Positions 4,137 through 36,916 of a stretch of 42,245 bases of DNA are shown here, piece after piece. Where the stretch lies: assembly GCA_023663285.1 (NCBI GenBank), contig JAMPHT010000029.1, forward strand, positions 1-42,245, read 5' to 3'. The stretch comes from Bacillota bacterium. Lineage in GTDB: Bacteria > Bacillota > Clostridia > Lachnospirales > Lachnospiraceae. A program made the position numbers and the translations under genes. The notes under the pieces were generated by a model, which saw only the letters and a program-made list of their open reading frames with translations, was not told the origin of the DNA and made no database searches. The stretch's first letter is position 1. Each line of letters opens with the position of its first letter.

Positions 4137-4152
4137 TCGCGAGGAGATGCGG

Positions 4153-5100
4153 ATGAATTACATCGTATTGGATTTGGAGTGGAATCAGAGTCAAACTGAC
4201 ACAGGGGTAATACCGGAGCTTGTCTTTGAAATCATTGAAATAGGTGCTGTCATGTTAAATGACAGTTATGTCATGATTCATGAATTCAGCCGTCTGGTCA
4301 AACCGGAGGTGTATCATGAGATGAACCAGATCACCGGTAAGCTGGTTCATCTGCAGATGAAGGAGCTTCAAAGGGGCGTACCCTTTGTGGAGGCGGCGGG
4401 GGATTTCCTGAAATGGTGCGGTACGAAGGAGTATATTTTCTGTACCTGGGGAAGTATGGATCTGACAGAATTCCAGCGGAATATGCAGTTTTATGATATG
4501 ACGCCGCTGTCAGACGGCCCCATAGCCTTTCTGGATGTACAGAAGCTGTTCAGCCTGGCTTATGAGGACGGAAAATCGAGACACAGTCTGGAATATGCCG
4601 TTGATATGCTGGGGCTGGAAAAAGATATTCCCTTTCACAGGGCGTTCAGCGACGCCTATTATACGGCGAAGCTGCTGAAAACCATCGGAGAGCGGCACAG
4701 GGAAGTCATGCAGTATGTTTCCTATGACGTATTTCATCTGCCCGCCGGCAGAAAGCAGGAGATCAAGGTTCGGTTTGACAACTATGCAAAATATATTTCC
4801 AGAGAATTTGAAAGCAAGGAGGACGCCCTTGCGGATGGCGAGGTAATGTCGAGCAAATGTTACCTGTGCTGCAGAAACGTGAAAAGGAAGGTGAAGTGGT
4901 TCACGCCCAACGGGCGGAACTATTATTGCGCTGCGTACTGTGAAAAACACGGCTATCTGAAAGCAAAAGCAAGAGTCCGCAAATCGGAGAGCGGAAAGGT
5001 CTATATTGTAAAGACCACTAAGTTCATATCCCAGGAGGACGCGGCAAAGCTTAAGAACCGCAGCGCCCTGGTGAAGAGACAGAACGCAAGGCGGCGGTGA
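4153..5100 (+). CDS. DEDDh-type 3'-5' exonuclease
   Basis: 315-aa protein. The N-terminal half is an RNase T/DnaQ-like exonuclease: motif I is LDLEWN (Asp-x-Glu near residues 6-8), motif II falls around the TWGSMD segment, and motif III is HRAFSDAYY with the His and Asp of the DEDDh class. The C-terminal 120 residues carry Cys pairs (CYLCCRN, then CAAYCEKHGY) and a lysine/arginine-rich tail, which suggests a zinc-binding, nucleic-acid-contacting end. ATG 4147 is overlapped by the AGGAG ribosome binding site (4142-4146), so ATG 4153 with proper spacing is preferred. Substrate, DNA or RNA, is not determinable. It converges with the carboxypeptidase gene 33 bp away. Confidence 0.85.
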   Translation: MNYIVLDLEWNQSQTDTGVIPELVFEIIEIGAVMLNDSYVMIHEFSRLVKPEVYHEMNQITGKLVHLQMKELQRGVPFVEAAGDFLKWCGTKEYIFCTWGSMDLTEFQRNMQFYDMTPLSDGPIAFLDVQKLFSLAYEDGKSRHSLEYAVDMLGLEKDIPFHRAFSDAYYTAKLLKTIGERHREVMQYVSYDVFHLPAGRKQEIKVRFDNYAKYISREFESKEDALADGEVMSSKCYLCCRNVKRKVKWFTPNGRNYYCAAYCEKHGYLKAKARVRKSESGKVYIVKTTKFISQEDAAKLKNRSALVKRQNARRR

Positions 5101-5133: not shown

Positions 5134-6645
5134 TCAGAAATCATAATCCCTAAAGCGGTTCGGACGTTTCCGCTTCTTTGTATTTTTGCTTCTGCGCCAG
5201 CTCCGGCGTCCGCCTCCGAAGGAAAACTGGTAATTTTTCAAAATGGCCCTGATCAGGCACAGGATAAAAAATGCCGCGGCAATGCCGGCGAGTACGGTCA
5301 GCACCCGCACGATATTGATGAAGATCACGGATCTGCCGGAGCTTTCCTCATCCGCCTTGTCCTCGCTGTCATCGGTCGGTTCATTGAAAATATGGGTGTC
5401 GCTTTCATCCCTGACAAAATCCACCCGGACGGTGCCAATATCTACGCCGTGATAGGTGTAGCTGATAATGGCGGCCTGGTTCTCGTTGTCCGTCTCATAG
5501 GTGATGGCGGAATCCGTATCGTCAAAGGCGGCGGTCCGGGGCAGGATGATATAGTCGTCCTTATTCAGGGTCAGCAGAGGCTTGGAGTTGCCGAATATAT
5601 CGTTGCCTCCGTAAAACATACTGGAGTCGTCCACATTATATTTTGTCTCTGTCTGTGAGACGTTGACCTTGTCGAAGTTGCTGAAGCCGTAATTGAAAAG
5701 GGCGATGGTGTCCTCATACTGAAAAGGCGACTCGTCCCGCATGACAACGCAGATCAGCCGCATACCGTCCTTTTCCGCGCAGGACACCAGGCAGTATCTT
5801 GCAGCGTTGGTGTAACCGGTCTTACAGCCCACAAGGTTTTCGTAAGCGTAGGTGCCGCCGGGAATGAGCTGCATACTGCTGTTCTCTATCTTTGCCACCG
5901 GGATGGTGTCGGAGGCGGGTATCTCCAGGCGTCGGGTCATTGTGATCTTACACAGCATTTCATTTGCAAAAAAGGCGCGTCCAATCATTGCCAGGTCATA
6001 GGCCGTGGTATAGTGGTTCTCGTCGGGCAGGCCGTTTGGATTTACAAAATTGGAATTCAGACAGCCCAGCTTAGCCGCCCTCTCGTTCATCATTTCCGCA
6101 AAAACGCTCCAGTTACTGGTGCCGGAGATATGCTCCGCCACGGCGAAGGAAACTTCGTTGGCAGAACGAATGAGAATGGCGTTCAGGCACTGCTCCATGG
6201 TCAGCTGCTGACCCACATCCATGGCAATATGGTTGCTGTCCCTGGGAGTGTTAAAAACCGCGTCGTGGGAAAAGGTGACAACCTCATCCAGGGAGCATTG
6301 CTCTGTGGCGATCAGGCTAGTCAGGATCTTGGTGGTGCTGGCAGGGTATTCCTGTTGATGAATGTTCTTGGCGTACAGAATAGTCCCTGTGTCAACCTCC
6401 ATGAGAATGGCGGCTTCCGCAGACACCACGGGACCCGCAGGCCAGTTGGGCACCTCGTTGGACTGGACCGGCAGGGCGCGGTTCTGGTCAATGCGCTCGT
6501 CTATGCTTAGGGTATCCGCGCGGGCGGTGAGGCCCTGAGTGAGGAACAGGCTGCAGGCCCAGGCAAGAGCAGTGAAAAGAGCAGTGAAAAGAGCAGTATA
6601 TCGCTTTTTATTCTTTTTTATCTTAAAAATTTCAGTATGTGTCAT
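5134..6645 (-). CDS. D-alanyl-D-alanine carboxypeptidase (PBP5/DacF family)
   Basis: 503-aa membrane-anchored penicillin-binding protein that trims the terminal D-Ala from peptidoglycan stem peptides outside the cell. An N-terminal signal segment (residues about 16-40) is followed by the SxxK motif STTK (103-106), the SxN motif SAN (161-163) and KTG (275-277), the full serine carboxypeptidase triad set. A hydrophobic segment near residues 445-470 and a strongly basic tail (RRSWRRSKNTKKRKR) form a C-terminal membrane anchor. I choose ATG 6645, which has a GAGG 8 nt upstream, over the in-frame TTG five codons earlier. The signal peptide contains an in-frame 12-bp tandem repeat giving LFTALFTAL. 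It is transcribed alone from its own promoter. Confidence 0.93.
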   Translation of the reverse strand: MTHTEIFKIKKNKKRYTALFTALFTALAWACSLFLTQGLTARADTLSIDERIDQNRALPVQSNEVPNWPAGPVVSAEAAILMEVDTGTILYAKNIHQQEYPASTTKILTSLIATEQCSLDEVVTFSHDAVFNTPRDSNHIAMDVGQQLTMEQCLNAILIRSANEVSFAVAEHISGTSNWSVFAEMMNERAAKLGCLNSNFVNPNGLPDENHYTTAYDLAMIGRAFFANEMLCKITMTRRLEIPASDTIPVAKIENSSMQLIPGGTYAYENLVGCKTGYTNAARYCLVSCAEKDGMRLICVVMRDESPFQYEDTIALFNYGFSNFDKVNVSQTETKYNVDDSSMFYGGNDIFGNSKPLLTLNKDDYIILPRTAAFDDTDSAITYETDNENQAAIISYTYHGVDIGTVRVDFVRDESDTHIFNEPTDDSEDKADEESSGRSVIFINIVRVLTVLAGIAAAFFILCLIRAILKNYQFSFGGGRRSWRRSKNTKKRKRPNRFRDYDF

Positions 6646-6664
6646 GAAGCTACCTCGCAAGGGT

Positions 6665-6694
6665 ATTATAGCAGAGGCGGGCCCGCTTTGGCAA
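6665..6694 (-). promoter_or_regulatory. Promoter of the D,D-carboxypeptidase gene
   Basis: On the minus strand TTGCCA (6689-6694) and a perfect TATAAT (6665-6670) are separated by 18 bp. The start codon lies about 20 nt beyond the -10 box, so the leader is very short. Confidence 0.7.
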
Positions 6695-6796
6695 GCCGCT
6701 TAAATTTTGCCGGGTGCAGATCTGTCGGGGCCACCGATTGGCGCTATGCAGCCGGGTGATTCGGCAAGTGAAATCGTTAAGCAGTATAAAATATAA

Positions 6797-6825
6797 TTGG
6801 CAAAGAGAGGTTTTGAGCATATAAT
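6797..6825 (+). promoter_or_regulatory. Promoter of trmB
   Basis: TTGGCA (6797-6802), 17-bp spacer, TATAAT (6820-6825). Transcription would begin near 6832, about 55 nt before the trmB start. Confidence 0.72.
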
Positions 6826-6885
6826 GTAGTTGTTGCTTAAAAAGATTCGGAACTGCTGTTTGAAAAAGAGAGGAACCGGAGTGTC

Positions 6886-7530
6886 ATGAGACTGAAGAAT
6901 ATTACGGGCTCCAGGGAGGTGGTCGCGGGGAGTCCTTATGTGGTGCAGGAGGCAGTACAGCCCTCCTGCACCGGAAAATGGAAGGAGATTTTTGGAAACG
7001 ATCATCCGATTTCCGTTGAAATCGGTATGGGAAAAGGAAAATTTATACATACTATGGCCAGGGAGCATCCTGATATCAATTATGTGGGGATCGAAAAATA
7101 TTCCAGCGTCCTGCTGCGGGCCATTCAGAAGATGGAGCAGGAGGAACTGCCAAACCTGAAATACTTACGAATGGACGCGGAGAATGTGGACAAGGTCTTT
7201 GGCGCCGGGGAGGTGGACAGGATCTATCTGAATTTTTCGGATCCCTGGCCCAAGGACAGGCACGCAAAAAGACGGCTTCCCTCCAGAGAATTCCTGGCCC
7301 GCTATGACCTGATCCTGAAGCGGGACGGCAGGCTGGAGTTCAAGACCGATAACAGGAAGCTGTTTGATTTTGCGGTGGCGGAGCTTGAGCCCGCGGGCTG
7401 GAAGGCGGAGGTGATCACCTACGATCTGCACAGGGATGAAATTTTATCGGAGGGAAATGTCATGACGGAGTATGAGGAAAAATTTTCCGCTCTGGGGAAT
7501 CCCATTTGCAAATTTGTTATTTATCGTTAG
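6886..7530 (+). CDS. trmB: tRNA (guanine-N7-)-methyltransferase
   Basis: 214-aa cytoplasmic SAM-dependent enzyme that forms m7G46 in the variable loop of tRNAs. The SAM-binding motif EIGMGKGKF is near residue 46. The family signature LNFSDPWPKDRHAKRR (about residues 112-127) and FKTDN (about 149) are intact, and the C-terminal half has the usual DLHRDE and TEYEEKF elements. Full family length. The start ATG is preceded by AGAGG. Promoter at 6797-6825; the YitT gene follows 114 bp downstream and may share the transcript. Confidence 0.96.
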   Translation: MRLKNITGSREVVAGSPYVVQEAVQPSCTGKWKEIFGNDHPISVEIGMGKGKFIHTMAREHPDINYVGIEKYSSVLLRAIQKMEQEELPNLKYLRMDAENVDKVFGAGEVDRIYLNFSDPWPKDRHAKRRLPSREFLARYDLILKRDGRLEFKTDNRKLFDFAVAELEPAGWKAEVITYDLHRDEILSEGNVMTEYEEKFSALGNPICKFVIYR

Positions 7531-7644
7531 AGGATTGCTGCGCGGCGTTTGTAAAAAACACTGAGATGTGTCCGGCGAAAGCTTTGGGCCGCAGACGGCA
7601 GAAGAAAAATGTTGCCGCAGATTCAGGGAGGTTCGGATTAAATT

Positions 7645-8520
7645 ATGAAAAAAGAAGCTGTTATTTACGAAGGAAAAAGGTTTTTGATCAGTATGCTGGG
7701 CGCGTTTCTCTATGCGGTGGGCGTCAATCTGTTTGTGGTGCCATCCGGCCTGTATAACGGGGGACTGATGGGCATCTGTCAGGTCATCCGTACCCTGCTG
7801 GCGGATCTGTTCCACCTGGATTTCGGAAGCTTTGATATAGCCGGTATCATCTACTATATCATGAATATTCCTATCTTTATCGTGGCGTTTACCCGGATAG
7901 GAAGAATGTTTTTTGCAAAGACGTTGCTGGCGGTCTCGGCAATGACCTTATTTATGTCCGTTATCCCCGTGGGAGCGGTGGTTGACGACGTGATGGCGTC
8001 CTGCGTGGTGGGCGGCATCGTTTCCGGCGCAGGCGTGGGGATCATGCTCCGCATGGGCTCTTCCGGCGGCGGTATGGATGTGATAGGCGTACTGCTGACG
8101 AAATGGAGGCGGGATTTCAGTGTGGGCAAGGTGACGCTGCTGGTAAACATGGTGCTGTACGGCACCTGCCTTTTCCTCTTTGATGTGGATGTGGTGCTTT
8201 ATTCCGTAATTTACGCCGCGGTATATTCCGTTGCCATGGACAGGATGCACACCCAGAACATCAACGTGGAGGTCAATGTGATCACAAAGGCGGACACCAC
8301 CGCCATGGAGAAGGAGATCTTCAACGAGGTGGGACGAGGGATCACAAAATGGTCCGCGCTGGGGGCATATACCTACGACCGCTCCCACATCCTGTATATC
8401 ATGCTTTCCAAATATGAAGTAAACAGGCTGAGAGCCATTATCCACAAGCACGACCCCAACGCATTTATCGTGGTAAATGAGGGGGTCAGCGTGGATGGGA
8501 ATTATCTGAAGAAATTATAA
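7645..8520 (+). CDS. YitT-family membrane protein (DUF161 + DUF2179)
   Basis: 291-aa protein with about five hydrophobic segments in its first 200 residues, with conserved YitT features (AVGVNLFVVPSGLYNGGL near the start and GMGxIMLRMGSSGGGMDV-like GAGVGIMLRMGSSGGGMD near 135). The C-terminal 80 residues match the DUF2179 cytoplasmic domain (from ITKADTTAMEKEI through VNEGVSVDGNYLKK). The family is abundant in Firmicutes and its molecular function is unknown. The start ATG has a GGGAGG about 14 nt upstream, rather distant. It follows trmB by 114 bp and precedes the accessory repeat region. Confidence 0.9.
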   Translation: MKKEAVIYEGKRFLISMLGAFLYAVGVNLFVVPSGLYNGGLMGICQVIRTLLADLFHLDFGSFDIAGIIYYIMNIPIFIVAFTRIGRMFFAKTLLAVSAMTLFMSVIPVGAVVDDVMASCVVGGIVSGAGVGIMLRMGSSGGGMDVIGVLLTKWRRDFSVGKVTLLVNMVLYGTCLFLFDVDVVLYSVIYAAVYSVAMDRMHTQNINVEVNVITKADTTAMEKEIFNEVGRGITKWSALGAYTYDRSHILYIMLSKYEVNRLRAIIHKHDPNAFIVVNEGVSVDGNYLKKL

Positions 8521-8596
8521 TTATTTAAGAAAATATAAAGCGTACTTTATTTTATCCTAAAAAATAAGACTGTCAATGATTATGGCACATTTGCAA

Positions 8597-8824
8597 AAAG
8601 GAAAAAACTGATATGCAATGCAGCAAATGTGGGAAAATAGTAGCTGCTGGAGCCGCATTCTGTCCCCAATGCGGCATGGCGGTTGATAAGGCAGGCTTAT
8701 CTTCAGGCAATCAACTGTTGTATAAGCTAACAGAAAATGCCTTATGTTTGTAATTGCGGGGCCCGCACTGGAAGTCGTTAAGATGATAATTGATAAACTC
8801 ACGGAATGGGTGGATAAAGCAAAC
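8597..8824 (+). repeat. Direct repeat copy 1 (228 bp)
   Basis: By eye, 8597-8824 aligns without gaps to 9677-9904 with 10 mismatches in 228 positions (about 96% identical). The unit holds a complete small zinc-ribbon gene and the first 27 codons of a membrane-protein gene. The two copies, 1080 bp apart, bracket the RelB/YoeB pair. A further 20-nt element at 8574-8593, just before this copy, matches 10127-10146, just after the second unit, at 18 of 20 positions. Confidence 0.95.
8613..8753 (+). CDS. Small zinc-ribbon protein, copy 1
   Basis: 46-aa product beginning MQCSKCGKIVAAGAAFCPQCG: two C-x2-C knuckles (residues 3-6 and 17-20) form a zinc-ribbon as in the many short zinc_ribbon_2 proteins of Firmicutes. 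After the ribbon come 26 residues with no recognised motif. An AAGG lies 11 nt upstream of the ATG. Its stop codon overlaps the start of the next frame by 10 nt, as in the second copy at 9693. It is probably a regulatory or scaffold module joined functionally to the membrane segment coded next; in this copy the partner is truncated. Role unknown. Confidence 0.6.
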   Translation: MQCSKCGKIVAAGAAFCPQCGMAVDKAGLSSGNQLLYKLTENALCL

Positions 8825-8902
8825 TCATCCATCATTTCCTGTGTCAATGAATCAATGTTTACCGAGGCATTCATAATTCTTAACATACTCCGCATAATAT
8901 AA
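8744..8902 (+). pseudogene. Truncated copy of the membrane-protein gene
   Basis: The first 27 codons (MFVIAGPALEVVK through DKAN) match the intact gene at 9824-10132. Homology then stops abruptly at 8824, and unrelated codons run on to a stop at 8902. The transmembrane and C-terminal parts are missing. The break coincides exactly with the end of the 228-bp repeat, so it marks a recombination or insertion junction beside the toxin-antitoxin pair. Confidence 0.75.
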
Positions 8903-8927
8903 AGCATCAGTATTGTAAAGCATTTAC

Positions 8928-8958
8928 TTGACAATTTATCAATCTATGGTAGGATAAT
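8928..8958 (+). promoter_or_regulatory. Promoter of the RelB/YoeB operon
   Basis: A perfect TTGACA at 8928-8933 is followed by TAGGAT (8950-8955, 16-bp spacer) and, overlapping it, GATAAT (8953-8958, 19-bp spacer). Either could serve as the -10 box. The antitoxin start is at 8979. Antitoxin autoregulation is typical of the family, but no clear operator palindrome was found here. Confidence 0.6.
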
Positions 8959-8978
8959 AACTGAAAGGCGGTGTAAAT

Positions 8979-9248
8979 ATGGCACAGACAACAATGGTAA
9001 ATTTTCGTATGGATTCCAATACAAAAAAAGAAGTAGAGGAAATTTTTGCTAATATGGGACTATCCATGACAGCAGCAATCAACGTTTTCTTAAATAAAGT
9101 CAGAATGGAGCGTCGCATACCTTTTGAGATTACGGCTGACCCAGACCCATTTTATTCGGAAAGCAATATTAAACACTTAGAAAGCATTATTGCGGATATC
9201 GACGCAGGAAAAGCACATTTTGCAGAACATGATTTAATTGAAGATTAG
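8979..9248 (+). CDS. RelB/DinJ-family antitoxin
   Basis: 89-aa protein with an N-terminal ribbon-helix-helix: the VNFRMDSNTKKEVEEIF strand-helix and the GLSMTAAINVFLNKV helix are characteristic of RelB/DinJ. The acidic C-terminus (from PDPFYSESN to HDLIED) should wrap and neutralise the toxin. It is the first gene of a two-gene operon, followed 9 bp later by the YoeB-like toxin. The family normally represses its own promoter together with the toxin. Pairing of a RelB/DinJ antitoxin with a YoeB-type toxin is known among Firmicutes. Confidence 0.9.
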   Translation: MAQTTMVNFRMDSNTKKEVEEIFANMGLSMTAAINVFLNKVRMERRIPFEITADPDPFYSESNIKHLESIIADIDAGKAHFAEHDLIED

Positions 9249-9257
9249 GGGGAAATC

Positions 9258-9521
9258 ATGAAGTTACTGTGGGAGGACAGAGCATGGGAAGATTACTGTT
9301 ATTGGCAGGAACATGATAAAAAACTGATAAAACGAATCAATTCCCTCATAAAGGATATTCAAAGGAATGGTTATGAGGGTATCGGAAAACCAGAACCTTT
9401 AAAGGAAAATCTCCAGGGTTATTGGAGCAGACGCATTGATGATAAAAACAGAATCGTCTACTATATCAAAGATAATGTAGCTTTCATTCTTTCCTGTAAG
9501 GGACATTATGAAAATAGGTAA
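9258..9521 (+). CDS. yoeB: Txe/YoeB-family mRNA-interferase toxin
   Basis: 87-aa protein matching the family over its whole length: WEDRAWEDYCYWQEHDKK at the N-terminus, GIGKPEPLKENLQGYWSRRID in the middle, and NRIVYYI with a C-terminal KGHYENR. The conserved Glu of PEPL, the Arg of SRRI, and the C-terminal His-Tyr pair correspond to the ribosome-dependent mRNA-cleavage site of YoeB. It is expected to cut mRNAs at the A site when released from the antitoxin. The start ATG follows the antitoxin stop by 9 bp with GGGGGAAATC in the gap. Confidence 0.92.
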   Translation: MKLLWEDRAWEDYCYWQEHDKKLIKRINSLIKDIQRNGYEGIGKPEPLKENLQGYWSRRIDDKNRIVYYIKDNVAFILSCKGHYENR

Positions 9522-28460: not shown

Positions 28461-29324
28461 ATGTTAGTTTCTGCAACGGAAATGCTGAAAAAGGCAAAGG
28501 CGGGCCACTATGCGGTAGGCCAGTTCAACATCAACAACCTGGAATGGACAAAGGCGATCCTTTTGACTGCTCAGGAGTTGAATTCCCCTGTTATCCTGGG
28601 TGTGTCCGAGGGCGCAGGCAAGTACATGGGCGGCTATGACGTGGTGGTCGGCATGGTGAACGGACTGATAAAGGATCAGAACATCACCGTTCCCGTAGCG
28701 CTGCATCTGGATCATGGCAGCTATGAGCACTGCTACAAGTGTATGGAGGCAGGCTTCTCATCCGTCATGTTTGACGGCTCCCATTATCCCATTGAGGAGA
28801 ACGTTGAAAAGACAAAGGAGCTGGTTGCAGCGGCTCATGCAAAGGGAATTTCCATTGAGGCCGAGGTCGGTTCCATCGGCGGCGAGGAGGACGGCGTGAT
28901 AGGCATGGGCGAGTGCGCCGATCCTAACGAGTGTAAGCAGATTGCAGATCTGGGCGTCGATTTCCTGGCGGCGGGCATCGGCAACATTCACGGCAAATAT
29001 CCTGCAAACTGGAAGGGCCTTTCCTTTGAGACACTGGATGCGGTACAGCAAAAGACCGGCGATATGCCCCTGGTGCTTCACGGCGGCACAGGCATTCCCG
29101 CCGATATGATCAAGAAAGCGATCACTCTGGGCGTTGCAAAGATCAATGTAAATACCGAGTGCCAGCTTTCATTTGCGGCAGCTACCCGCAAGTACATTGA
29201 GGCAGGTAAGGATCAGGAAGGCAAAGGCTTTGATCCCCGTAAGCTTCTGGCTCCCGGCTTTGAGGCAATCAAGGCTACCGTTAAGGAGAAGATGGAGTTG
29301 TTTGGCTCTGTGGGAAAAGCCTGA
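28461..29324 (+). CDS. fba: Class II fructose-1,6-bisphosphate aldolase
   Basis: 287-aa zinc-dependent aldolase that cleaves fructose-1,6-bisphosphate to DHAP and glyceraldehyde-3-phosphate in glycolysis. HLDHGSYEHC (residues about 81-90) carries the catalytic Asp and a zinc His. IEAEVGSIGGEEDG is the second conserved segment, HGKYP and HGGTG supply the remaining zinc-site histidines, and NVNTECQ lies near the phosphate site. Full family length. It is read from its own promoter inside the upstream gene and closed by a strong terminator, so it is a single-gene unit. Confidence 0.95.
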   Translation: MLVSATEMLKKAKAGHYAVGQFNINNLEWTKAILLTAQELNSPVILGVSEGAGKYMGGYDVVVGMVNGLIKDQNITVPVALHLDHGSYEHCYKCMEAGFSSVMFDGSHYPIEENVEKTKELVAAAHAKGISIEAEVGSIGGEEDGVIGMGECADPNECKQIADLGVDFLAAGIGNIHGKYPANWKGLSFETLDAVQQKTGDMPLVLHGGTGIPADMIKKAITLGVAKINVNTECQLSFAAATRKYIEAGKDQEGKGFDPRKLLAPGFEAIKATVKEKMELFGSVGKA

Positions 29325-29382
29325 GAATATGTATGAGAATAACGGGCAGCACGCTCTGCAAACTGCCCTTATGTTAATGAGA

Positions 29383-29416: not shown

Positions 29417-29638
29417 CTGTGGGCGCCGGTTCCCGCCAAGTATCCGGCGGCGCAGATTTTACAAATGCCGCCTTTTGCAGATCGGCTCAACTGTCGGGTG
29501 AATTTCAGCGGCGGATTCTCTTTCCCCGTTATTGCGGGTACTGTCGAAATATACTATGATAAGCGTAAACGGAATGCACGGATTGTTTGTGCCGCCGAAG
29601 CGGTATGGCAGGATGTGTTGAAAGGAGCGGAAAATCAT

Positions 29639-30466
29639 ATGAAAACAGGCGAGGTAATCAGTAAAAGGCGTAAAGAGCTGGGGCTGACCCAGAATCAGCT
29701 TGCCGGAATGCTGGGCATATCCTTTCAGGCAGTGTCAAAATGGGAAAACAGCGCGGCTCTTCCGGATGTGGAAATGCTTCCGAAGCTGGCGGCAGCGCTG
29801 CATACTACTGTAGATGGGCTGCTGGGCTATAACAGTGTGGTGACGGACTATGACAGGCGGTACAGCACCGAGGACTACTACTGGGGTCTGATGCCCAACC
29901 GCATCTGCTATGATATTATGAAAATTCTGCCGCCGGTCAGACCTTATCGGGTGCTTGATATGGGCTGCGGAGAGGGGAAGGATGCGGTATTTTTTGCTAA
30001 ATGCGGGTATGCAGTGACGGCATTTGATATCTCTGAGCGGGGCATCGAAAAGGCTAGGCGGCTTGCAGAGCACAACCGGGTGGAGGTCTGCTTTTTCAAA
30101 GCGGATCTTATGGACTACCGGCCTGATTCGGAATATGATATCATATTCAGCAGCGGCGTGCTGCACTTTCTGCCTGAAACCGTGCGGGAGGAGCTTTGCG
30201 GCAGTCTGAAAGCGCATACGGCGGATACAGGCATAAACGCTATGAATGTATTTGTGAAAAAGCCCTTTATCGTTCGGGTGGCGGATGGTACAAGGGATGA
30301 AGAAAAGCGGCATTTGTGGCGTTCGGGGGAATTGTTCGGATATTATCACGACTGGCTCTTCCACACCTGCCGGGAAGAGGTATTTGACTGCAACAGCGGC
30401 GGCACGCCCCATAAGCACTGCATGGATACGCTGATTGCACAGAAGCAGAAGGAAAATTTGCATTAG
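29639..30466 (+). CDS. XRE regulator fused to a class I SAM methyltransferase
   Basis: 275-aa two-domain protein. Residues about 5-60 are an XRE/Cro helix-turn-helix (LGLTQNQLAGMLGISFQAVSKWE). Residues about 75-250 form a TehB-like Rossmann methyltransferase with motif I VLDMGCGEGKDAVFFAKCGY and motif IV-like DIIFSSGVLHFLP. The methyl acceptor is not predictable; TehB-type members act on small molecules such as tellurite or other metalloids. The frame opens at 29465, but ATG 29639 with AAAGGAG 11 nt upstream begins exactly at the HTH. Its stop overlaps the stop of the convergent PIN toxin gene by 4 bp, a very tight junction. Confidence 0.85.
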   Translation: MKTGEVISKRRKELGLTQNQLAGMLGISFQAVSKWENSAALPDVEMLPKLAAALHTTVDGLLGYNSVVTDYDRRYSTEDYYWGLMPNRICYDIMKILPPVRPYRVLDMGCGEGKDAVFFAKCGYAVTAFDISERGIEKARRLAEHNRVEVCFFKADLMDYRPDSEYDIIFSSGVLHFLPETVREELCGSLKAHTADTGINAMNVFVKKPFIVRVADGTRDEEKRHLWRSGELFGYYHDWLFHTCREEVFDCNSGGTPHKHCMDTLIAQKQKENLH

Positions 30467-30867
30467 CTGCATAAATATTTTTCACAAAATTCTTTTGCTG
30501 TTACAATCTGAATATTTTTATATTTTTCAACCGCAAGAAGGTCTTTATCACCGCTAACGATATAAAGAGAACGAGAATCTTTTGCACATCCAAGAAATTT
30601 ATTATCATCAGGATCTCGGCATATTTCTACATGGGTAACAGGCTCAATGATCTCCATGGCTGTAATTAGTGGAGTCAGAATATTTCTGTTGATATGTCCC
30701 TGCTTTCGGTCAATCATTTCTTGGACAATCGATTCATATTCATCGATAATTTCTGGCGTGGCGCAGGCAGTCATTTCTCCATTGACAACCGAACTGAGAA
30801 TTTTTCTTGGAAATCCGCCAAAAAACACACCTGAAATTAGAACGTTTGTATCTATCACAATTTTCAT
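30463..30867 (-). CDS. PIN-domain toxin (VapC-like, COG1569)
   Basis: 134-aa PIN-fold ribonuclease. IDTNVLISGVF at residues 5-15 gives the first acidic residue. TPEIIDEYESIV has the second acidic cluster, and CRDPDDNKFLGCA with SGDKDLL supplies the others, the four-acid Mg site of PIN nucleases. It likely cleaves RNA when freed from the antitoxin. Its ATG overlaps the antitoxin stop by 4 nt (ATGA type), a coupled antitoxin-toxin pair. The gene ends flush against the convergent methyltransferase. Confidence 0.9.
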   Translation of the reverse strand: MKIVIDTNVLISGVFFGGFPRKILSSVVNGEMTACATPEIIDEYESIVQEMIDRKQGHINRNILTPLITAMEIIEPVTHVEICRDPDDNKFLGCAKDSRSLYIVSGDKDLLAVEKYKNIQIVTAKEFCEKYLCS

Positions 30868-31130
30868 ACTTGCTTCTTCTTTCTAACAGATTTGATTATA
30901 TTATCAACATCATTCTCGTTGTATCCGGCAGACATTGCCCATTTTTGTGCTTCATCCAGTGCAGCTTCAAATTCTTCTGTAGAAGGGAGTTTTAAAGTTT
31001 TGAGCATAATAACATCGCCCGAAGTATATGCCACCAGTTTATCACCGGTATCAATTGATAGGAGTTTGCGGATGCCGACTGGTAAAGAAATTTGCCCTTT
31101 GGAGGAAACTGTCAATATTTGTGTGTTCAT
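30864..31130 (-). CDS. AbrB/SpoVT-type antitoxin
   Basis: 88-aa protein with an N-terminal swapped-hairpin AbrB domain: LTVSSKGQISLPVGIRKLL then GDKLVAY (residues about 5-35). The C-terminal part (FEAALDEAQKWAMSAGYNENDVDNIIKSVRKK) is helical and should bind the PIN toxin. It precedes the toxin in a two-gene operon and probably represses it through the 21-bp palindrome just upstream. Confidence 0.9.
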   Translation of the reverse strand: MNTQILTVSSKGQISLPVGIRKLLSIDTGDKLVAYTSGDVIMLKTLKLPSTEEFEAALDEAQKWAMSAGYNENDVDNIIKSVRKKKQV

Positions 31131-31146
31131 TTTTTTATGCTCCTTT

Positions 31147-31197
31147 TAAGTAAGAATTTCTTACTTATATTATGCCATAGCGTAAAAATATATGCAA
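31147..31197 (-). promoter_or_regulatory. Promoter and 21-bp palindromic operator of the AbrB/PIN operon
   Basis: Minus strand: TTGCAT (31192-31197), 17-bp spacer, CATAAT (31169-31174). Directly downstream, 31147-31167 is a perfect palindrome with 10-bp arms (TAAGTAAGAA / TTCTTACTTA) around one central base. It covers the transcription start, the position of an autorepressor operator. It is also only about 45 bp from the divergent promoter of the kinase operon. Confidence 0.75.
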
Positions 31198-31210
31198 GAA
31201 AAACAGATAA

Positions 31211-31239
31211 TTGACAGCCGTTCGGTATACCGATATAAT
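31211..31239 (+). promoter_or_regulatory. Perfect promoter with palindrome in the spacer, kinase-nuclease operon
   Basis: TTGACA (31211-31216), exactly 17 bp, TATAAT (31234-31239): full sigma-A consensus. The spacer contains a perfect 12-bp palindrome TCGGTATACCGA (31222-31233) touching the -10 box. A repressor sitting there, most simply the HTH protein coded first, would block polymerase. Transcription from about 31246 also shows that the first gene cannot start at the upstream ATG 31192. Confidence 0.85.
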
Positions 31240-31272
31240 AAATGGAGTAAGTTATATGCGGAGGTGAGCGGC

Positions 31273-31719
31273 TTGGACTTTCAGACATATCTTGATCGGC
31301 GTGGCATTACAAAATATCGTCTTTCTCAAATCAGCGGTGTACCTAAGACCACTATCATGGATATTTGCGCCGGGCGCAGTGAATTGGAACGGTGCAGCGC
31401 CAGAACCATTCGTCAGCTTGCCAGGGCGCTGGACTGCACGATGGAGGAGATCATGGACTTGTCCTCCTGCGGCGACGATACCGGCCTGCCGGAAGATAAG
31501 TCCTATTTGGAATGCGGCCTGCCTGATTTTCTGCGGGAATCCATTTTGCAAATGGAGGCAGCCTGGGCCAGACTGGATAAGGGAGAGAAGTATATGCGTT
31601 GGGACTGTGATTTTTGTAATCTGCAGACCGACATCAATAACGCAGAGGTCAACGGAATCATCAGTTCGGAACAGGCGTGGTATCTGCGGGAGAAGTATTT
31701 GGGGTTAGAAAGGGTGTGA
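31273..31719 (+). CDS. XRE-type regulator (HipB-like) of the kinase operon
   Basis: 148-aa protein. Residues about 8-62 are a helix-turn-helix (RGITKYRLSQISGVPKTTIMD, then TIRQLARALDCTMEEIM). Residues 75-148 form a separate C-terminal domain with conserved-looking WDCDFCNLQTDINNAE and EQAWYLREKYLG. TTG 31273 is preferred: GGAGG lies 8 nt upstream and the promoter lies between this codon and the upstream ATG at 31192. By position it matches HipB, the antitoxin/repressor of HipA kinases, but the C-terminal domain is longer than in classical HipB. The kinase gene follows after 4 bp. Confidence 0.8.
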   Translation: MDFQTYLDRRGITKYRLSQISGVPKTTIMDICAGRSELERCSARTIRQLARALDCTMEEIMDLSSCGDDTGLPEDKSYLECGLPDFLRESILQMEAAWARLDKGEKYMRWDCDFCNLQTDINNAEVNGIISSEQAWYLREKYLGLERV

Positions 31720-31723
31720 GGGT

Positions 31724-32602
31724 GTGGAGGATATTGACTTTACCAAACTGCAAAGGCGGAACAAGGCATATGCCGGAGCAAACGGAAGCAAAATCTCCGT
31801 AATTTACGAAGGTGAACAATATATGCTGAAATTTCCTGCGGCACCTTCCAGAAACAAGGCGATGAGTTACAGTAACAGTTGTTTTTCGGAATATCTCGGC
31901 TGCCAGATTTATGAGAGTATTGGAATCCCTGTCCAGAAAACGCTGCTTGGCACATTTCTGGTGAAAGGCAGGAAGAAGATTGTTGTGGCTTGCAGAGATT
32001 TTACGAGACCCGGCGTTGTGCTGCAGGATTTTGCCTCGCTGAAAAATCAGATCATTGATTCCGAGCATAATGGCTACGGCACAGAGCTTTCCGATATTCT
32101 CTCTACTTTTCGTGAACAGACGGCCATAGATGCCGGAGAATTGACAAAGCGCTTTTGGGATATGTTTATCGTAGATGCTTTTATCGGCAACTGGGATCGG
32201 CATAATGGTAATTGGGGATTTCTTTACGATACGCAAAACGATACAATAGAGCTGGCACCGGTTTATGACTGTGGCAGCAGTCTATATCCGCAGGCAGATG
32301 AAGCTGTCATGGAATTGGTCCTTGCTAATAAACGAGAGATGGATTATCGGATTTTTGAAATACCCACATCTGCACTTTTATTGAATGGGAAAAAGATAAA
32401 ATATTTTGATTTTATTTCATCACTGCAAAACGAGGACTGCAATCATGCCTTAGAACGAATCACATTACGGATAGATATGGGGAAAATTGCGGCTATCATA
32501 AATAATACGCCGTTTCTCAGTGATCTGCAGCGACGTTTTTATCTGGCGATGCTGGCGGAACGGAAAACCAGAATTCTTGACTTTTCTTTGGGCAGATTAT
32601 AG
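31724..32602 (+). CDS. HipA-like serine/threonine kinase (HipT/CtkA type)
   Basis: 292-aa kinase of the HipA C-terminal fold. YMLKFP (Lys36) fits the ATP-anchoring lysine. FIGNWDRHNGNWG (153-165) is the HipA catalytic loop with Asp158 and Asn163. APVYDCGSSL (178-187) holds the metal-binding Asp182. There is no N-terminal HipA subdomain 1, so it resembles the compact HipT/CtkA-type kinases. HipA phosphorylates GltX and related kinases target other translation factors; the target here is unknown. The start is GTG with a weak SD, 4 bp after the regulator, so coupled translation is likely. Together they form a toxin-antitoxin-like pair. Confidence 0.82.
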   Translation: MEDIDFTKLQRRNKAYAGANGSKISVIYEGEQYMLKFPAAPSRNKAMSYSNSCFSEYLGCQIYESIGIPVQKTLLGTFLVKGRKKIVVACRDFTRPGVVLQDFASLKNQIIDSEHNGYGTELSDILSTFREQTAIDAGELTKRFWDMFIVDAFIGNWDRHNGNWGFLYDTQNDTIELAPVYDCGSSLYPQADEAVMELVLANKREMDYRIFEIPTSALLLNGKKIKYFDFISSLQNEDCNHALERITLRIDMGKIAAIINNTPFLSDLQRRFYLAMLAERKTRILDFSLGRL

Positions 32603-32625
32603 ATTCAAATAAAGGGATATTTTAT

Positions 32626-33765
32626 ATGCAGCTACCATATTCTGATACTTTAGAAATTCAATATTTGAGCCGTATATTCGACAATACAAGCGAATGTTAT
32701 AAATTTTTTTGGTTTCAGGCGATTGTCTCAAAGGTGCTTGAGGGCAAAAGCTGTATAACATATGAAGAACTGGTCGATGAAATGATTGCGGATGCGTGGT
32801 ATATGGTGATTGAGTATCATTTGAATCTGGGACCCAGAGATACTTTGGAAAGCCTGGTGCTCTATTTGCAGCAGATATCGCAGCTGAAATCTTCAGAAAA
32901 GAAGGAAAACATCATCAGTTATCTAAAAAACTGTACGGATAAAGAAGTCGCGAAGCGAAAAAGAACATTGACAAAAAATGTTCCGTACCGTATTCAGGCT
33001 CCATTTATGGATAAGGTCAAAGGTAAAGAATGGGATGTGTCGGAAAGCGCGCTTATTTCTAAAATCAACCAGGAACGCAGATTAATGTATTACTTTGATG
33101 CGCTAAACGGTATGCAGACGGTCATACGGCTTAATTCGGAGTGGCTTACATATATACATCACAATCAGGAGATCATAAGCGGTTGGCTGCAGTATAATAT
33201 TGTTACCTATTTACAAAGACGCAATCCGAGTGTTCCGGGGATTGCCGATAAATTATATCCGCCGCAGGAACGGAAGCTGGAGAAGGTTAAAAAATATTGG
33301 AAGTTATTATTGGAGATTCAGCCGATCCACGAAATATATGGGCATATGCTGCTGTCTGAAAAGGATATTTCCATTGACCATTTTGTGCCGTGGTCGTATG
33401 TGGCTCATGACGAATTTTGGAATCTGCATCCTACAACGCGAAGTATCAATAGCAGCAAGAGCAACAATTTACCGGATTGGGATATTTATTTCCCACAGCT
33501 TGCAAGGTTGGAATTTTTTTCTTATGAGATGATGTGGCAATATGATGCTCTGCATAATGAATTTGAAAAATGTGCAAAGGAGCATTTGAACGATAACGCG
33601 GTAAGAAGAAAGATCTATCAAAAGGGGCAGGATTTTACAAGATTTTCCCACGCGTTGGAAGAGATTTTGCAGCCGGTATATCAATCTGCAAAAAATTGTG
33701 GATTTAAGGGTTGGGTCTATAGGGATGTGCAGGATAATGATGAGCGGGACAATATCGTATTATGA
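32626..33765 (+). CDS. HNH endonuclease-domain protein
   Basis: 379-aa protein of mostly helical, A/T-rich coding sequence. The nuclease core is near the C-terminus: SIDHFVPWSY (Asp251-His252), FWNLHPTTRSIN (Asn266, Asn275) and SSKSNNLPD (Lys278), the beta-beta-alpha metal pattern of HNH enzymes of the HNH_4-like type. The N-terminal 230 residues (helical, with a conserved-looking RIQAPFMDK segment) are not recognised and may bind DNA or partner proteins. AAAGGG lies about 12 nt before ATG; 23 bp separate it from the kinase. It is the probable DNA-cutting effector of the operon; no methylation partner of classical type II R-M is evident besides the small methylase coded next. Confidence 0.8.
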   Translation: MQLPYSDTLEIQYLSRIFDNTSECYKFFWFQAIVSKVLEGKSCITYEELVDEMIADAWYMVIEYHLNLGPRDTLESLVLYLQQISQLKSSEKKENIISYLKNCTDKEVAKRKRTLTKNVPYRIQAPFMDKVKGKEWDVSESALISKINQERRLMYYFDALNGMQTVIRLNSEWLTYIHHNQEIISGWLQYNIVTYLQRRNPSVPGIADKLYPPQERKLEKVKKYWKLLLEIQPIHEIYGHMLLSEKDISIDHFVPWSYVAHDEFWNLHPTTRSINSSKSNNLPDWDIYFPQLARLEFFSYEMMWQYDALHNEFEKCAKEHLNDNAVRRKIYQKGQDFTRFSHALEEILQPVYQSAKNCGFKGWVYRDVQDNDERDNIVL

Positions 33766-34345
33766 CAAAAATGCAGAAGAGTTTTGTCGTGCAACAAAAG
33801 ACGCTGACATGAGTTATTGCAGGGATAAATTTTTGCATTTTTTGAACCGGCAGGAGCATATGATTCATATCTTAGATGCAGGCTGCGGAAGCGGACGGGA
33901 TGCAAAAGCATTTTTAGATGCCGGCTATAAAGTAACAGCGTTGGATGCCTCAAGTGAAATATGTAAAGAGGCCGAGAAGCTGGTAAATCAAAAAGTTCTT
34001 TGCATGGGATTTGAGGAAATGCAGTTTCAGCAGGAATTTGACGGAATATGGGCGTGTGCCTCCCTTTTACATATTCCTTATATAGAAATGAGTGAGGTGT
34101 TGAAGCACTTTTGGTATGCCTTAAAAGAAGAAGGGATATTGTATGCTTCTTTTAAATATGGGAAAGGTATGAGAATCGATAAGGGCAGAGCGTTTTATGA
34201 TTATGAAGAGATGGAATTAAAAAATCTTATGATGAGTAATGGGTTTTTGGTAAAGGAGATTTTTATAACGCAAGATGTTCGTGAAAACAGGGAAAGTGAA
34301 CAATGGATCAATGTGTTGGTGGAAAAATTCAAAACGTCAAGATGA
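33737..34345 (+). CDS. Class I SAM-dependent methyltransferase of the kinase-nuclease operon
   Basis: 202-aa Rossmann methyltransferase: ILDAGCGSGRDAKAFLDAGY is motif I, ALDASSE the acidic end of strand 2, and IWACASLLHIPYIEM the motif IV region. No DNA-methylase signature (NPPY/DPPY) is present, so DNA is not an obvious substrate. The N-terminus SYYDKNAEEF is typical of this subgroup. From memory, close relatives occur fused to DEAD-box helicases in genome islands; I could not verify this here. Starts at ATG 33737 or 33740 and overlaps the nuclease gene by about 29 bp, so it is the last gene of the same operon. Confidence 0.8.
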   Translation: MMSGTISYYDKNAEEFCRATKDADMSYCRDKFLHFLNRQEHMIHILDAGCGSGRDAKAFLDAGYKVTALDASSEICKEAEKLVNQKVLCMGFEEMQFQQEFDGIWACASLLHIPYIEMSEVLKHFWYALKEEGILYASFKYGKGMRIDKGRAFYDYEEMELKNLMMSNGFLVKEIFITQDVRENRESEQWINVLVEKFKTSR

Positions 34346-34418
34346 AGTTTTGGATGAAGTTTTGGAAAATAGGATTGTAAAAGAATTAGAAAAAGAGGCA
34401 GATAAGCGTCCATTATAG
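34338..34418 (+). other. Coding-like remnant with 12-bp tandem repeat after the methyltransferase
   Basis: GATGAAGTTTTG occurs twice in tandem (34341-34352, 34353-34364), spanning the methyltransferase stop codon. In the +1 frame relative to that gene the sequence stays open through DEVLDEVLENRIVKELEKE to TAG 34416-34418, with coding-like composition. It may be the tail of another gene or a frameshifted extension. Together with the fall in A/T content after 34430, it marks the right edge of the accessory segment. Confidence 0.4.
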
Positions 34419-34450
34419 ATCAGCTTCAGAAAGGGAACAGGAGAGATCAC

Positions 34451-36916
34451 ATGAGCAGACTATGGTATGAGCAGCCGGCGGCTGAGTGGGAAGAGGCGCT
34501 GCCCATAGGCAGCGGCAGGCTGGGGGCAATGGTGTATGGCGGGACAGATGCCGAGCAGCTTCAACTGAACGAGGAGAGCATATGGTATGGCGGCAGAGTA
34601 GACCGGATAAACCCTGATTTCAAGAGGAATCTGCCTTTGATTCGGGAATATCTGGATCAGGGACAGATTGCGAAAGCAGAGCGTTTGATGGACAAGGCCA
34701 TGACAGGATGTCCGGACAGTATGCACCCGTACCAGACCTTAGGTGAGATCGCTTTCAAGTTTTATGGCATAGACAGAGAAAATGTCACAGCTTACACCCG
34801 AACGCTGGATCTGGACAGGGCGGTGGCGCGCACACAGTTCAGGGTGGGCGAGACCCTTTACTGCAGGGAGATCTTTGCCTCCCATCCGGCGGACTGTATT
34901 ATTATGCGGTTTACGGCGGATGGACCCGGCACGGTGGATTTTACCGCCAGAATGCGTCGGGGGAAATTTTTTGACGGCGTAAGACGGTACGGGGATGATG
35001 CTGTTGAACTCTATGGAAATCTGGGCAGGGGCGGATATGAATTCTCCATGATGCTGCAGGCGGAAGCAGTGGGGCAGGGGAAAGTCACTGCGCTGGGGGA
35101 GAGTCTTGACGCCGCGGGTGCAAAAGAGGTTATTTTGTATTTTACCGCGGACACCACCTATCATTACGGAATACAGGAGCAAAACGCGTGGGTGGCAAAT
35201 TTCAAGGAAAAATTTGCGGAGAAGGGCTTCAGCCTGCCTGTAGATGGGGAAACTGCAGTGAAAAATAGAACGTCGCCATCCTTTTGTCCCGCCGCGGCGC
35301 ATTACTTGGGTCTGGCGCAGCGGCAGGACATTCCGGAATATGAGAGGCTGGAGTATCTGACCCAGGCGGCGCTGCAGACGCTGCTGCACAACAATCTGAC
35401 GGCCCGAATCCAGAGGGCGTCAGAGAAAAAGTATCAGGGACTGCTGGCGGAGCACATAGCGGATCACAGCGCTCTTTACGATAGGTTTGCCTTTGAACTG
35501 GAGGGCGTCGAAGCCTTTGACAGTCTGCCCACGGATAAGCGGCTGGAGCAGGCGAAGGAAGGCAGGGCGGATGTGGGCTTAAGCAAGCTGCTCTTTGATT
35601 TCGGCAGGTATCTGACTATCAGCTGCAGCCGGGAAGGCGGGCTTCCGTCCACCCTGCAGGGGCTTTGGAACAAAGACTTTACGCCACCCTGGGACAGCAA
35701 GTATACCATTAATATCAACACGGAAATGAATTACTGGCACGTGGAGAGCTGTAACCTTTCCCGGTGTCATATGCCGCTGTTTGACCTGCTGGAAAAGGTG
35801 CAGATAACCGGCAGGCGCACCGCACGGGAGATGTACGGCTGCCGGGGCTTTGTGGCTCACCACAACACGGACGTCCACGGCGATTCCGCACCCCAGGACA
35901 TCTGGTATCCCGGTTCTTATTGGACCATGGGGGCGGCATGGCTTGCCACTCACCTCTGGACCCATTATCAATACACGCTGGACGAAACGTTTTTAAAAAG
36001 GGCGTTCCCTGTTCTGGCGGAGGCGGCATTGTTCTTTGTGGATTTTCTGATCGAGCGGAACGGTTATCTGGTGACAAGCCCCTCTGTTTCCCCGGAAAAT
36101 TCTTACAGGCTGCCGAATGGTGAGAAAGGCTCCTGCTGCGTGGGAGCCACTATGGACAATCAGATCCTGAGGCACCTCTTTACGGGCTGTCTGGGCGCAT
36201 GGGAGGCGTTGGGAGAGAAAGAGCCGGAGGGCTGTGAGATTGCGGATGTTGAAAGTATTCCGGAGCTGATGGAGCAGATTCGGAATTGCAGGGACAGGCT
36301 GACCCCCACGCAGATCAGCGACAGCGGCAGGATCATGGAGTGGCAGCAGGATCATGAGGAGGTGGAGCCGGGACATAGGCATATTTCCCATCTTTATGGT
36401 CTGTATCCCGGAGGAGAGATCACCGTGGATGGCACGCCCAAGCTGGCTGCGGCGGCGCGAAAGACGCTGGAATACAGGCTTTCTCATGGAGGCGGCCACA
36501 CGGGCTGGAGCAGGGCATGGATCATGAATCATTATGCCAGCCTCTGGGACGGTGAAGCGGCTTATGAAAATATTGAGAAGATGCTGGGCCAGTCTACTTA
36601 TCCCAATATGTTTGACCGGCACCCGCCCTTTCAGATAGACGGTAACTTCGGAGCCTGCGCGGCAATGAGCGGTATGCTGGCACAGAGCAGTCTGGGGAGA
36701 GCGGTGCTGCTTCCCGCGCTGCCAAAGGCATGGAAGGCGGGTTCTGTCAGGGGTCTAAGACTGGCAGGAAATGCAGAATTATATATGACATGGAAGGAAG
36801 GACGGCTTACTACTGCGGAGATCCATGCTGACAGTGATTATGACGCGGATGTCATATGCGGCGAAAAGCGGATACATATTACCCTAGGAGCGGGCCAGAG
36901 CAGTATTATCATGTGA
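34451..36916 (+). CDS. GH95 alpha-L-fucosidase
   Basis: 821-aa glycoside hydrolase family 95 enzyme that inverts alpha-1,2-linked fucose (or, in some members, galactose) on host glycans. The N-terminal beta-domain opens with YEQPAAEWEEALPIGSGRLGAMV and LNEESIWYGG. The (alpha/alpha)6 barrel contains NINTEMNYW (catalytic Asn pair), EWQQDHEEVEPGHRHISHLYGLYPG with the general-acid Glu, and FQIDGNFGACAAM with the conserved Asp. There is no signal peptide, so it acts on oligosaccharides after uptake. SD GAGAG-like sequence before ATG. It pairs with the GH2 gene downstream, pointing to mucin-type or N-glycan fragment degradation. Confidence 0.92.
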   Translation: MSRLWYEQPAAEWEEALPIGSGRLGAMVYGGTDAEQLQLNEESIWYGGRVDRINPDFKRNLPLIREYLDQGQIAKAERLMDKAMTGCPDSMHPYQTLGEIAFKFYGIDRENVTAYTRTLDLDRAVARTQFRVGETLYCREIFASHPADCIIMRFTADGPGTVDFTARMRRGKFFDGVRRYGDDAVELYGNLGRGGYEFSMMLQAEAVGQGKVTALGESLDAAGAKEVILYFTADTTYHYGIQEQNAWVANFKEKFAEKGFSLPVDGETAVKNRTSPSFCPAAAHYLGLAQRQDIPEYERLEYLTQAALQTLLHNNLTARIQRASEKKYQGLLAEHIADHSALYDRFAFELEGVEAFDSLPTDKRLEQAKEGRADVGLSKLLFDFGRYLTISCSREGGLPSTLQGLWNKDFTPPWDSKYTININTEMNYWHVESCNLSRCHMPLFDLLEKVQITGRRTAREMYGCRGFVAHHNTDVHGDSAPQDIWYPGSYWTMGAAWLATHLWTHYQYTLDETFLKRAFPVLAEAALFFVDFLIERNGYLVTSPSVSPENSYRLPNGEKGSCCVGATMDNQILRHLFTGCLGAWEALGEKEPEGCEIADVESIPELMEQIRNCRDRLTPTQISDSGRIMEWQQDHEEVEPGHRHISHLYGLYPGGEITVDGTPKLAAAARKTLEYRLSHGGGHTGWSRAWIMNHYASLWDGEAAYENIEKMLGQSTYPNMFDRHPPFQIDGNFGACAAMSGMLAQSSLGRAVLLPALPKAWKAGSVRGLRLAGNAELYMTWKEGRLTTAEIHADSDYDADVICGEKRIHITLGAGQSSIIM

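Follow-up and report, generated by a model that had tools for sequence, protein, structure and literature searches.

The stretch of DNA examined here (positions 1 to 42,245 of contig JAMPHT010000029.1, from the Lachnospiraceae genome assembly GCA_023663285.1; referred to as the window) carries, within positions 31211 to 34345, four consecutive genes for a helix-turn-helix (HTH) regulator, a HipA-like kinase, an HNH nuclease, and an S-adenosylmethionine (SAM)-dependent methyltransferase. The initial annotation proposed that the four genes form a single composite defense or abortive-infection module. The features of the locus are as follows.

31211-31239, + strand: promoter-like site of the sigma-70 type (TTGACA-17-TATAAT; 12/12 consensus matches), preceding the regulator-kinase pair
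31273-31719, + strand: regulator with an Xre-type HTH (HTH_26) and a conserved C-terminal tail, 148 amino acids (aa); start assigned by Shine-Dalgarno sequence
31724-32602, + strand: compact HipA-like Ser/Thr kinase of the CtkA branch, 292 aa, GTG start (HipA_C; CtkA homology)
32603-32625, + strand: module boundary; 32606 is the earliest position at which DNA similarity to HNH relatives was seen to set in
32626-33765, + strand: HNH nuclease, 379 aa; the first 235 residues or so have no significant Pfam match and are followed by a Cas9-type HNH motif
33740-34345, + strand: small class I SAM-dependent methyltransferase, about 201 aa (Methyltransf_25), overlapping the HNH gene
30463-31130, - strand: PIN/AbrB toxin-antitoxin pair, a separate neighbor in the same variable site (PIN_3, 4.5e-19; MazE_antitoxin, 2.7e-7)

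The list of open reading frames (ORFs) of the window confirmed the reported layout: all four ORFs lie on the + strand, with 4 bp between the regulator stop (31719) and the kinase start (31724), 23 bp between the kinase and HNH genes, and an overlap of 26 to 29 bp between the HNH and methyltransferase genes (methyltransferase ATG at 33737 or 33740). The perfect consensus promoter and the PIN/AbrB pair upstream were likewise recovered, the latter on the minus strand through its two Pfam matches. Within positions 31100 to 34500, there are 10 other promoter-like sites, each with 9/12 matches (shuffled sequence yields a mean of 8.5 sites at ≥9/12); a weak site of this kind (9/12; 32577 to 32605) lies directly upstream of the module boundary. 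The listed ORF of the regulator starts at 31192, upstream of the perfect site, and the true start is more probably the TTG at 31273, eight bases after GGAGG. Pfam matches were obtained for the regulator (HTH_26, 2.8e-10), the kinase (HipA_C, 3.8e-16), the HNH protein (HNH_4, 3.6e-10), and the methyltransferase (Methyltransf_25, 3.4e-15). The cluster had also been described as A/T-richer than its flanks; this holds for the kinase, HNH, and methyltransferase genes (G+C contents of 43%, 40%, and 38%) and fails for the regulator gene (51%), the flanking genes containing 51 to 54%. A large gene starting at 34451, named a glycosidase gene in the initial annotation, forms the downstream flank, and the gene at 28461 to 29324, which we take to be aldolase-like, borders the variable site upstream.

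The kinase aligned with the structure of CtkA from Helicobacter pylori (3akj) over residues 3 to 288 of 292 (4e-88) and, over nearly its full length, with the PADLOC model PDC-M03A (3.5e-28). In 22 aligned kinases (L and G numbers denote loci and genomes below), K36, D151, N156, R159, and G165 are present in all sequences, and D158, N163, and D182 are present in 21; the latter three presumably have catalytic and metal-binding roles. The N-terminal subdomain 1 of HipA was not found, the sole Pfam match above the cutoff being HipA_C from residue 22 of 292. Among 19 relatives of at least 44% identity, the gene upstream of the kinase ends in a conserved tail in 16, including L197, in which the regulator was missed by the longest-ORF caller used for the relatives and recovered by tblastn. 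In the remaining three, no such gene was seen (L230), the sequence differs (L087), or a fragment is present at a contig end (L202). The proposed pairing of a compact kinase and a dedicated regulator is thus borne out as recurrent. Beside CtkA-type kinases, the tail has the consensus form IN...I(S/T).EQA.YLR.KYL, while the part preceding it varies, i.e., HTH_26 in the window, HTH_3 in L083 (8876 to 9295), and no Pfam match in L084 (7385 to 7960). Elsewhere, the tail apparently stands alone (L081, 8880 to 9116, 78 aa; L086, 8849 to 9052, 67 aa).

The combination of a variable or absent DNA-binding domain with a conserved tail suggests that the kinase and the tail protein constitute a toxin-antitoxin-type pair of a known kind, in which the kinase would be toxic and the tail would neutralize it. 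We infer that binding of the kinase resides in the tail, to which the DNA-binding domain is an exchangeable addition; the regulator is probably the antitoxin/autorepressor. The pair shares with HipBA-type toxin-antitoxin systems the HipA catalytic core and an adjacent gene for a DNA-binding partner (in the window, 4 bp upstream), and differs from them in lacking subdomain 1. Small HipA-like kinases without subdomain 1 and with several antitoxin types (e.g., HipT and HipG/I/J/M) are described by Gerdes et al. (PMC8262856), in the main text of which the terms "Helicobacter" and "Ctk" do not occur. With CtkA, the window kinase shares near full-length homology, HipA_C, and conserved core residues; it differs in being encoded directly behind an HTH-tail protein. 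It also differs at its end: the alignment stops at CtkA residue 286 of 325 and the window kinase ends at residue 292, so that the extreme C-terminal tail of CtkA, a suggested secretion signal according to PMC5536186, lies outside the match. The same paper mentions CtkA homologs in Clostridium and further gut bacteria, with about 50% identity; homologs in other gut bacteria lack this C-terminal tail or differ in it. Its main text contains none of the terms "toxin-antitoxin," "helix-turn-helix," and "HipA." The kinase matches the PADLOC candidate PDC-M03 through PDC-M03A, while the regulator matches no PDC model; no paper naming PDC-M03 was found in the open-licence literature searched. A different HipA-kinase pair, HipAD/DS-6 (a HipA-related kinase with a DUF3037-DUF1829 protein), is reported in passages of PMC13092281 to protect Escherichia coli from phage in a manner requiring kinase activity. 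Of the functions that have been tested, that of this two-gene system comes closest to what such a pair might do, as likened here by description only, and it differs in that its partner lacks similarity to HipB, whereas the window partner is an HTH-tail protein.

More distant kinases (27 to 38% identity; L089, L090, L093, L094, L097, L099, and L100) have a recurrent neighboring gene of 131 to 316 aa as called. By analogy with the resolvase-like HipP of HipM, this gene possibly encodes another type of antitoxin.

By sequence, the HNH protein falls in an unnamed family whose HNH motif is of the Cas9 type. HNH_4 was detected in all 54 aligned relatives, with D251, H252, N275, and K278 among the invariant residues; four other Pfam families appeared in one or two members each. 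Considering the best 25 of 43 matched PADLOC families, matches to PADLOC and NCBIfam models (Cas9, Cas9d, IscB, PtuB, PDC-M01B, and retron-type HNH) were weak or confined to few members, and no model dedicated to the family was seen in the copies scanned. Weak Cas9 profile matches occurred in 36 of the 54 members. The family shares the HNH_4 motif (D-H...N...K) with Cas9 and IscB and differs from them in that none of the 54 members matched RuvC and in the size of the window protein (379 aa).

The nearest solved relative of the methyltransferase is 3e23 (1.9e-25). Relatives of the window methyltransferase match Methyltransf_25 (41/41) and TehB (39/41), and all 41, like the window protein, match part of the PADLOC model mad2 (283 to 424 of 492). 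The similarity to MADS ends with this partial match: none of the other mad genes was matched among the six window proteins scanned, and the full mad gene set was not encountered. The sequence contains neither of the DNA-methyltransferase motifs that we presume to be diagnostic ([DNS]PP[YFW] or PC), and no separate target-recognition domain was found.

To survey the family, we assembled 84 HNH loci (80 named genome contigs and 4 viral contigs; 1.23 Mb; median locus, 14.3 kb), the named 80 being the best scoring of at least 565 confirmed relatives; 76 of them carry a full-length HNH gene, and many locus flanks are clipped by contig ends. A methyltransferase homolog is present in 55 of the 84 loci (tblastn). 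In 44 of the 76 full-length named loci it lies within 200 bp of the HNH gene on the same strand (43 downstream and 1 upstream), and the frames overlap in 27 of these 44 as called, although the longest-ORF caller may start genes too early and thus overstate overlaps. Adjacency was also found in 6 of 19 full-length loci of the family sample (3 upstream and 3 downstream; 20 loci hand-picked from 45 genomes with HNH) and in one of the four viral loci. The suggested coupling of nuclease and methyltransferase therefore stands as a recurrent pair, with both gene orders occurring. Plasmids extend this picture: the methyltransferase gene lies just upstream of the HNH gene in Acinetobacter (L209, L250, and L251), upstream with gaps of up to about 310 bp in Pseudoalteromonas (L211, L217, L253, and L255), and upstream in two pieces in Marinomonas (L228). 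Four of these (L209, L211, L217, and L228) were tested for homology to the window family, and the other four assignments follow the annotation. In L254, an annotated methyltransferase lies about 3.6 kb from the HNH gene.

In partial support of the initial annotation, some relatives of the HNH pair sit in defense neighborhoods. Within 8 kb of the HNH gene in the 76 full-length named loci, neighbor classes (blastp at 1e-5 against a few representatives) included SauUSI-like proteins (17 loci), SLFN/GIY-YIG helicases (13 loci), NUDIX proteins (12 loci), and MazG-like proteins of two types (11 and 8 loci). In the family sample, SauUSI-like and NUDIX genes each occurred within 8 kb in 8 of 19 HNH loci versus 0 of 20 kinase loci (P = 0.0012). 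Representative neighbors matched mREase_IV (9.8e-220; L077 copy) and the defense candidate PDC-S07 (2e-49). In L079 (7370 to 15217), which belongs to the 20 family loci, a single run comprises DndB, a PAPS-reductase-domain protein, DndD, DndE, and DndA, followed by the HNH protein and the methyltransferase. Among 27 plasmid and phage stretches taken for neighborhood reading (PLSDB gene tables for the plasmid loci are incomplete), sulfur-modification genes occur near HNH in L213, L214, L216, and L222 (in L223, a cysteine desulfurase alone), BREX genes follow the HNH pair in L250 and CRISPR I-F genes do so in L251, HNH is followed by McrBC and type I restriction-modification (R-M) genes in L228, and a DUF3427 protein lies near HNH in L256. 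A phage-labeled fecal record (L218) carries SauUSI-like, NUDIX, methyltransferase, and HNH genes in one run; a MazG-like gene follows HNH in L226; and, in two Betaproteobacteria, the gene immediately before HNH encodes an HIT protein (L210, 4589 to 4990; L252, 4678 to 4998). L224 carries no annotation.

Two of these neighbors resemble systems in the literature. SauUSI-type type IV restriction enzymes (PLD, helicase, and DUF3427 domains; SauUSI and DUF3427 are described in the text of PMC3874153) are frequent neighbors, with domains unlike those of the HNH family, and are not among the four window genes. HNH nucleases of a different domain layout (wHTH, SAD, and HNH) are described in Dnd neighborhoods in the text of PMC10853773; like the L079 protein, they are encoded just downstream of Dnd genes, and they differ in that neither a wHTH (sulfur-binding) nor an SAD/SRA domain is among the five Pfam families of the 54 HNH members.

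Apart from one same-genus locus (L194), no linkage of the two pairs to each other was found elsewhere. No homologs of the kinase, regulator, PIN, or AbrB proteins were detected in the 84 HNH loci (tblastn, E value of 1e-3; a search with the window kinase would overlook very distant HipA kinases), and neither an HNH nor a methyltransferase homolog was detected in 20 kinase loci (9 to 17 kb each, some clipped by contig ends), one of which holds an SLFN-type helicase. Among 200 genomes of the family, HNH (E ≤ 1e-25) was found in 45 genomes and the kinase (E ≤ 1e-15) in 21; both occurred in 7 genomes versus 4.7 expected by chance (P = 0.16). In six of these seven, they lie on different contigs, and they are adjacent only in the window genome. 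At an E value of 1e-3, a phylum sample of 299 genomes contained the HNH profile in 8 genomes and the kinase in 13, with both only in the window genome. In a genus sample (n = 101), each family occurred in 14 genomes (HNH, ≤1e-25; kinase, ≤1e-15), together only in G000 and G270. Among the 90 matches listed (covering L061 and L101 to L177), the DNA similarity that HNH relatives show to the window sets in no earlier than 32609 and, among the matches examined, never reaches into the kinase gene; in L194, it starts at 32606.

Relatives of the same site provided natural experiments. In L194, from the same-genus species G270, the site contains both pairs, with the regulator, HNH protein, and methyltransferase 95%, 94%, and 82% identical to those of the window. 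The kinase gene of L194 is broken by an internal deletion and truncated, leaving only residues 1 to 35 and 149 to 226; about 1.2 kb of DNA unmatched to the window separates it from the intact HNH gene, and the PIN gene is disrupted. Ratios of nonsynonymous to synonymous substitution (dN/dS; simple Nei-Gojobori method, window versus L194) were 0.06 for HNH and 0.21 for the methyltransferase, both intact. Those of the comparison genes were 0.06 and 0.01 for the upstream genes that we take to be WhiA-like and aldolase-like, 0.11 for the 34451 gene, and 0.29 for AbrB. The species with L194 has lost an intact kinase and kept the HNH-methyltransferase pair. In L196 (G275), both flanks match (at 29339 and 34451) and are separated by about 200 bp; the site is thus empty. 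L195 (G235) shares the 34430 edge; its cargo there is a DNA methyltransferase of the D12 class and a DndB-domain protein of 760 aa (6253 to 9393). The differing contents at L194, L196, and L195 therefore indicate that the site is variable and takes varied defense-type cargo.

We consider it likely that the cluster consists of two defense-type cassettes that are inherited independently and stand in tandem, i.e., a kinase toxin-antitoxin pair and a restriction-type HNH-methyltransferase module, in the variable site between the aldolase-like gene and the 34451 gene. In the first cassette (31211 to 32602), the HTH-tail protein would bind an operator through its HTH, while its conserved C-terminal tail would keep the CtkA/HipA-like kinase inactive; if the protein were lost or displaced during stress or infection, the freed kinase would phosphorylate a host protein and cause growth arrest. 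In the second cassette (approximately 32606 to 34345), the HNH protein, which we read as a restriction-type defense nuclease with small-enzyme partners, would cut invading DNA or its intermediates, with the target probably chosen by its uncharacterized N-terminal part. The methyltransferase would be a small-molecule- or nucleotide-type enzyme supporting or controlling the nuclease, and MazG, NUDIX, or HIT enzymes may serve similarly beside other HNH relatives.

The initial annotation instead treated the four genes as one composite defense or abortive-infection operon; in such an operon, the nuclease would act as the first line and the kinase as a backup killer. The tight co-directional arrangement behind one perfect promoter-like site, the defense-type nature of both pairs, and the recurrence of the tandem at the same site in a same-genus species are what such an operon would lead one to expect. 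The two pairs do not appear to be one system, however, because cross-linkage is absent (0/84 HNH loci and 0/20 kinase loci), genome co-occurrence is near chance (7/200), similarity to the HNH relatives begins at the module boundary (32606), and, in the same genus, L194 retains an intact HNH pair beyond a broken kinase and about 1.2 kb of other DNA. Outside the window, the pairs co-occurred at none of the loci surveyed except this same-genus one, which shares the site by descent; absence of co-occurrence elsewhere is what the initial annotation had named as refuting its proposal. On the linkage, boundary, and same-genus evidence, we rejected the single four-gene system, which we regard as very unlikely; no description of the four-gene combination was found in the open-licence literature searched. 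Classical R-M, in which the methyltransferase would shield host DNA at the HNH cut sites, would agree with the adjacent, often overlapping genes in both orders. Type II systems differ from the window pair in having a DNA-methyltransferase motif (as we presume it to be) and a target-recognition domain. Moreover, 32 of the 76 full-length HNH loci have no methyltransferase gene next to HNH, and the methyltransferase profiles are those of general, TehB-like, small-molecule, or protein methyltransferases; classical R-M is disfavored, and we judge it unlikely. Alternatively, the HNH gene could encode a DNA-repair nuclease or a selfish endonuclease of the homing type that drifts between islands. HNH domains are common in homing enzymes, the spread of the family is patchy (45/200 family genomes at an E value of ≤1e-25), and a good share of the loci lack both a methyltransferase and a known defense neighbor. 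The recurrent partner enzymes with overlapping frames and the repeated siting by known defense genes in several phyla point the other way and make this explanation improbable as well.

Several observations weigh against the tandem of two independent cassettes as proposed. One of the 20 family HNH loci, L069, contains a weak HipA-like stretch (42% over 55 aa) at a distance of about 4 kb from HNH, and on a Segatella copri plasmid about 4.8 kb separates an annotated HipA-family toxin gene (L225, 1 to 1189) from a short HNH match. In the window, the pairs are co-directional and 23 bp apart, no terminator-like site was found between them on the + strand, and they may be cotranscribed. The tandem at L194 shows that the arrangement predates the split from that species, and the L194 regulator is intact and conserved (dN/dS of 0.05) despite the broken kinase, for which control of the kinase alone seems an insufficient explanation. 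The lack of an adjacent methyltransferase in 32 of the 76 loci, together with methyltransferase family members in genomes without an HNH match (e.g., G047, G071, and G176), indicates that the pairing is not obligate. Several loci combine more than one small enzyme with the methyltransferase (e.g., L063 and L137); these enzymes therefore form a variable set rather than strict substitutes. Finally, nearness to defense genes is not proof of defense, and no defense system was recognized in stretches including L210, L212, L217, L219 (a VapC toxin only), L220, L252, and L253.

With the two-cassette reading, an apparent four-gene system is corrected to two testable two-gene cassettes. The first may tie bacterial toxin-antitoxin pairs to a family of kinases known chiefly through a Helicobacter effector. 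The second is the more interesting part, being recurrent, widespread, and unnamed, with some members beside known defense systems; HNH and methyltransferase genes on a single plasmid can be tested against standard laboratory phages. More tentatively, and with somewhat more doubt than confidence, we propose that the HNH proteins of Lachnospiraceae, cyanobacteria, Bacteroidota, and Proteobacteria represent one undescribed defense nuclease family. Its members would use variable small enzymes (methyltransferase, MazG-like/NUDIX pyrophosphohydrolase, or HIT) and police modified DNA and nucleotides beside SauUSI, Dnd, BREX, or CRISPR, with the window representing a minimal two-gene form.

Two further observations concern methyltransferase genes. 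On viral contig L184, the methyltransferase near HNH (3657 to 4241) is split in two ORFs, and two ORFs of >1,000 aa follow the HNH gene. Upstream in the window, a separate HTH-TehB-like methyltransferase gene (29465 to 30466) is mostly missing at L194.

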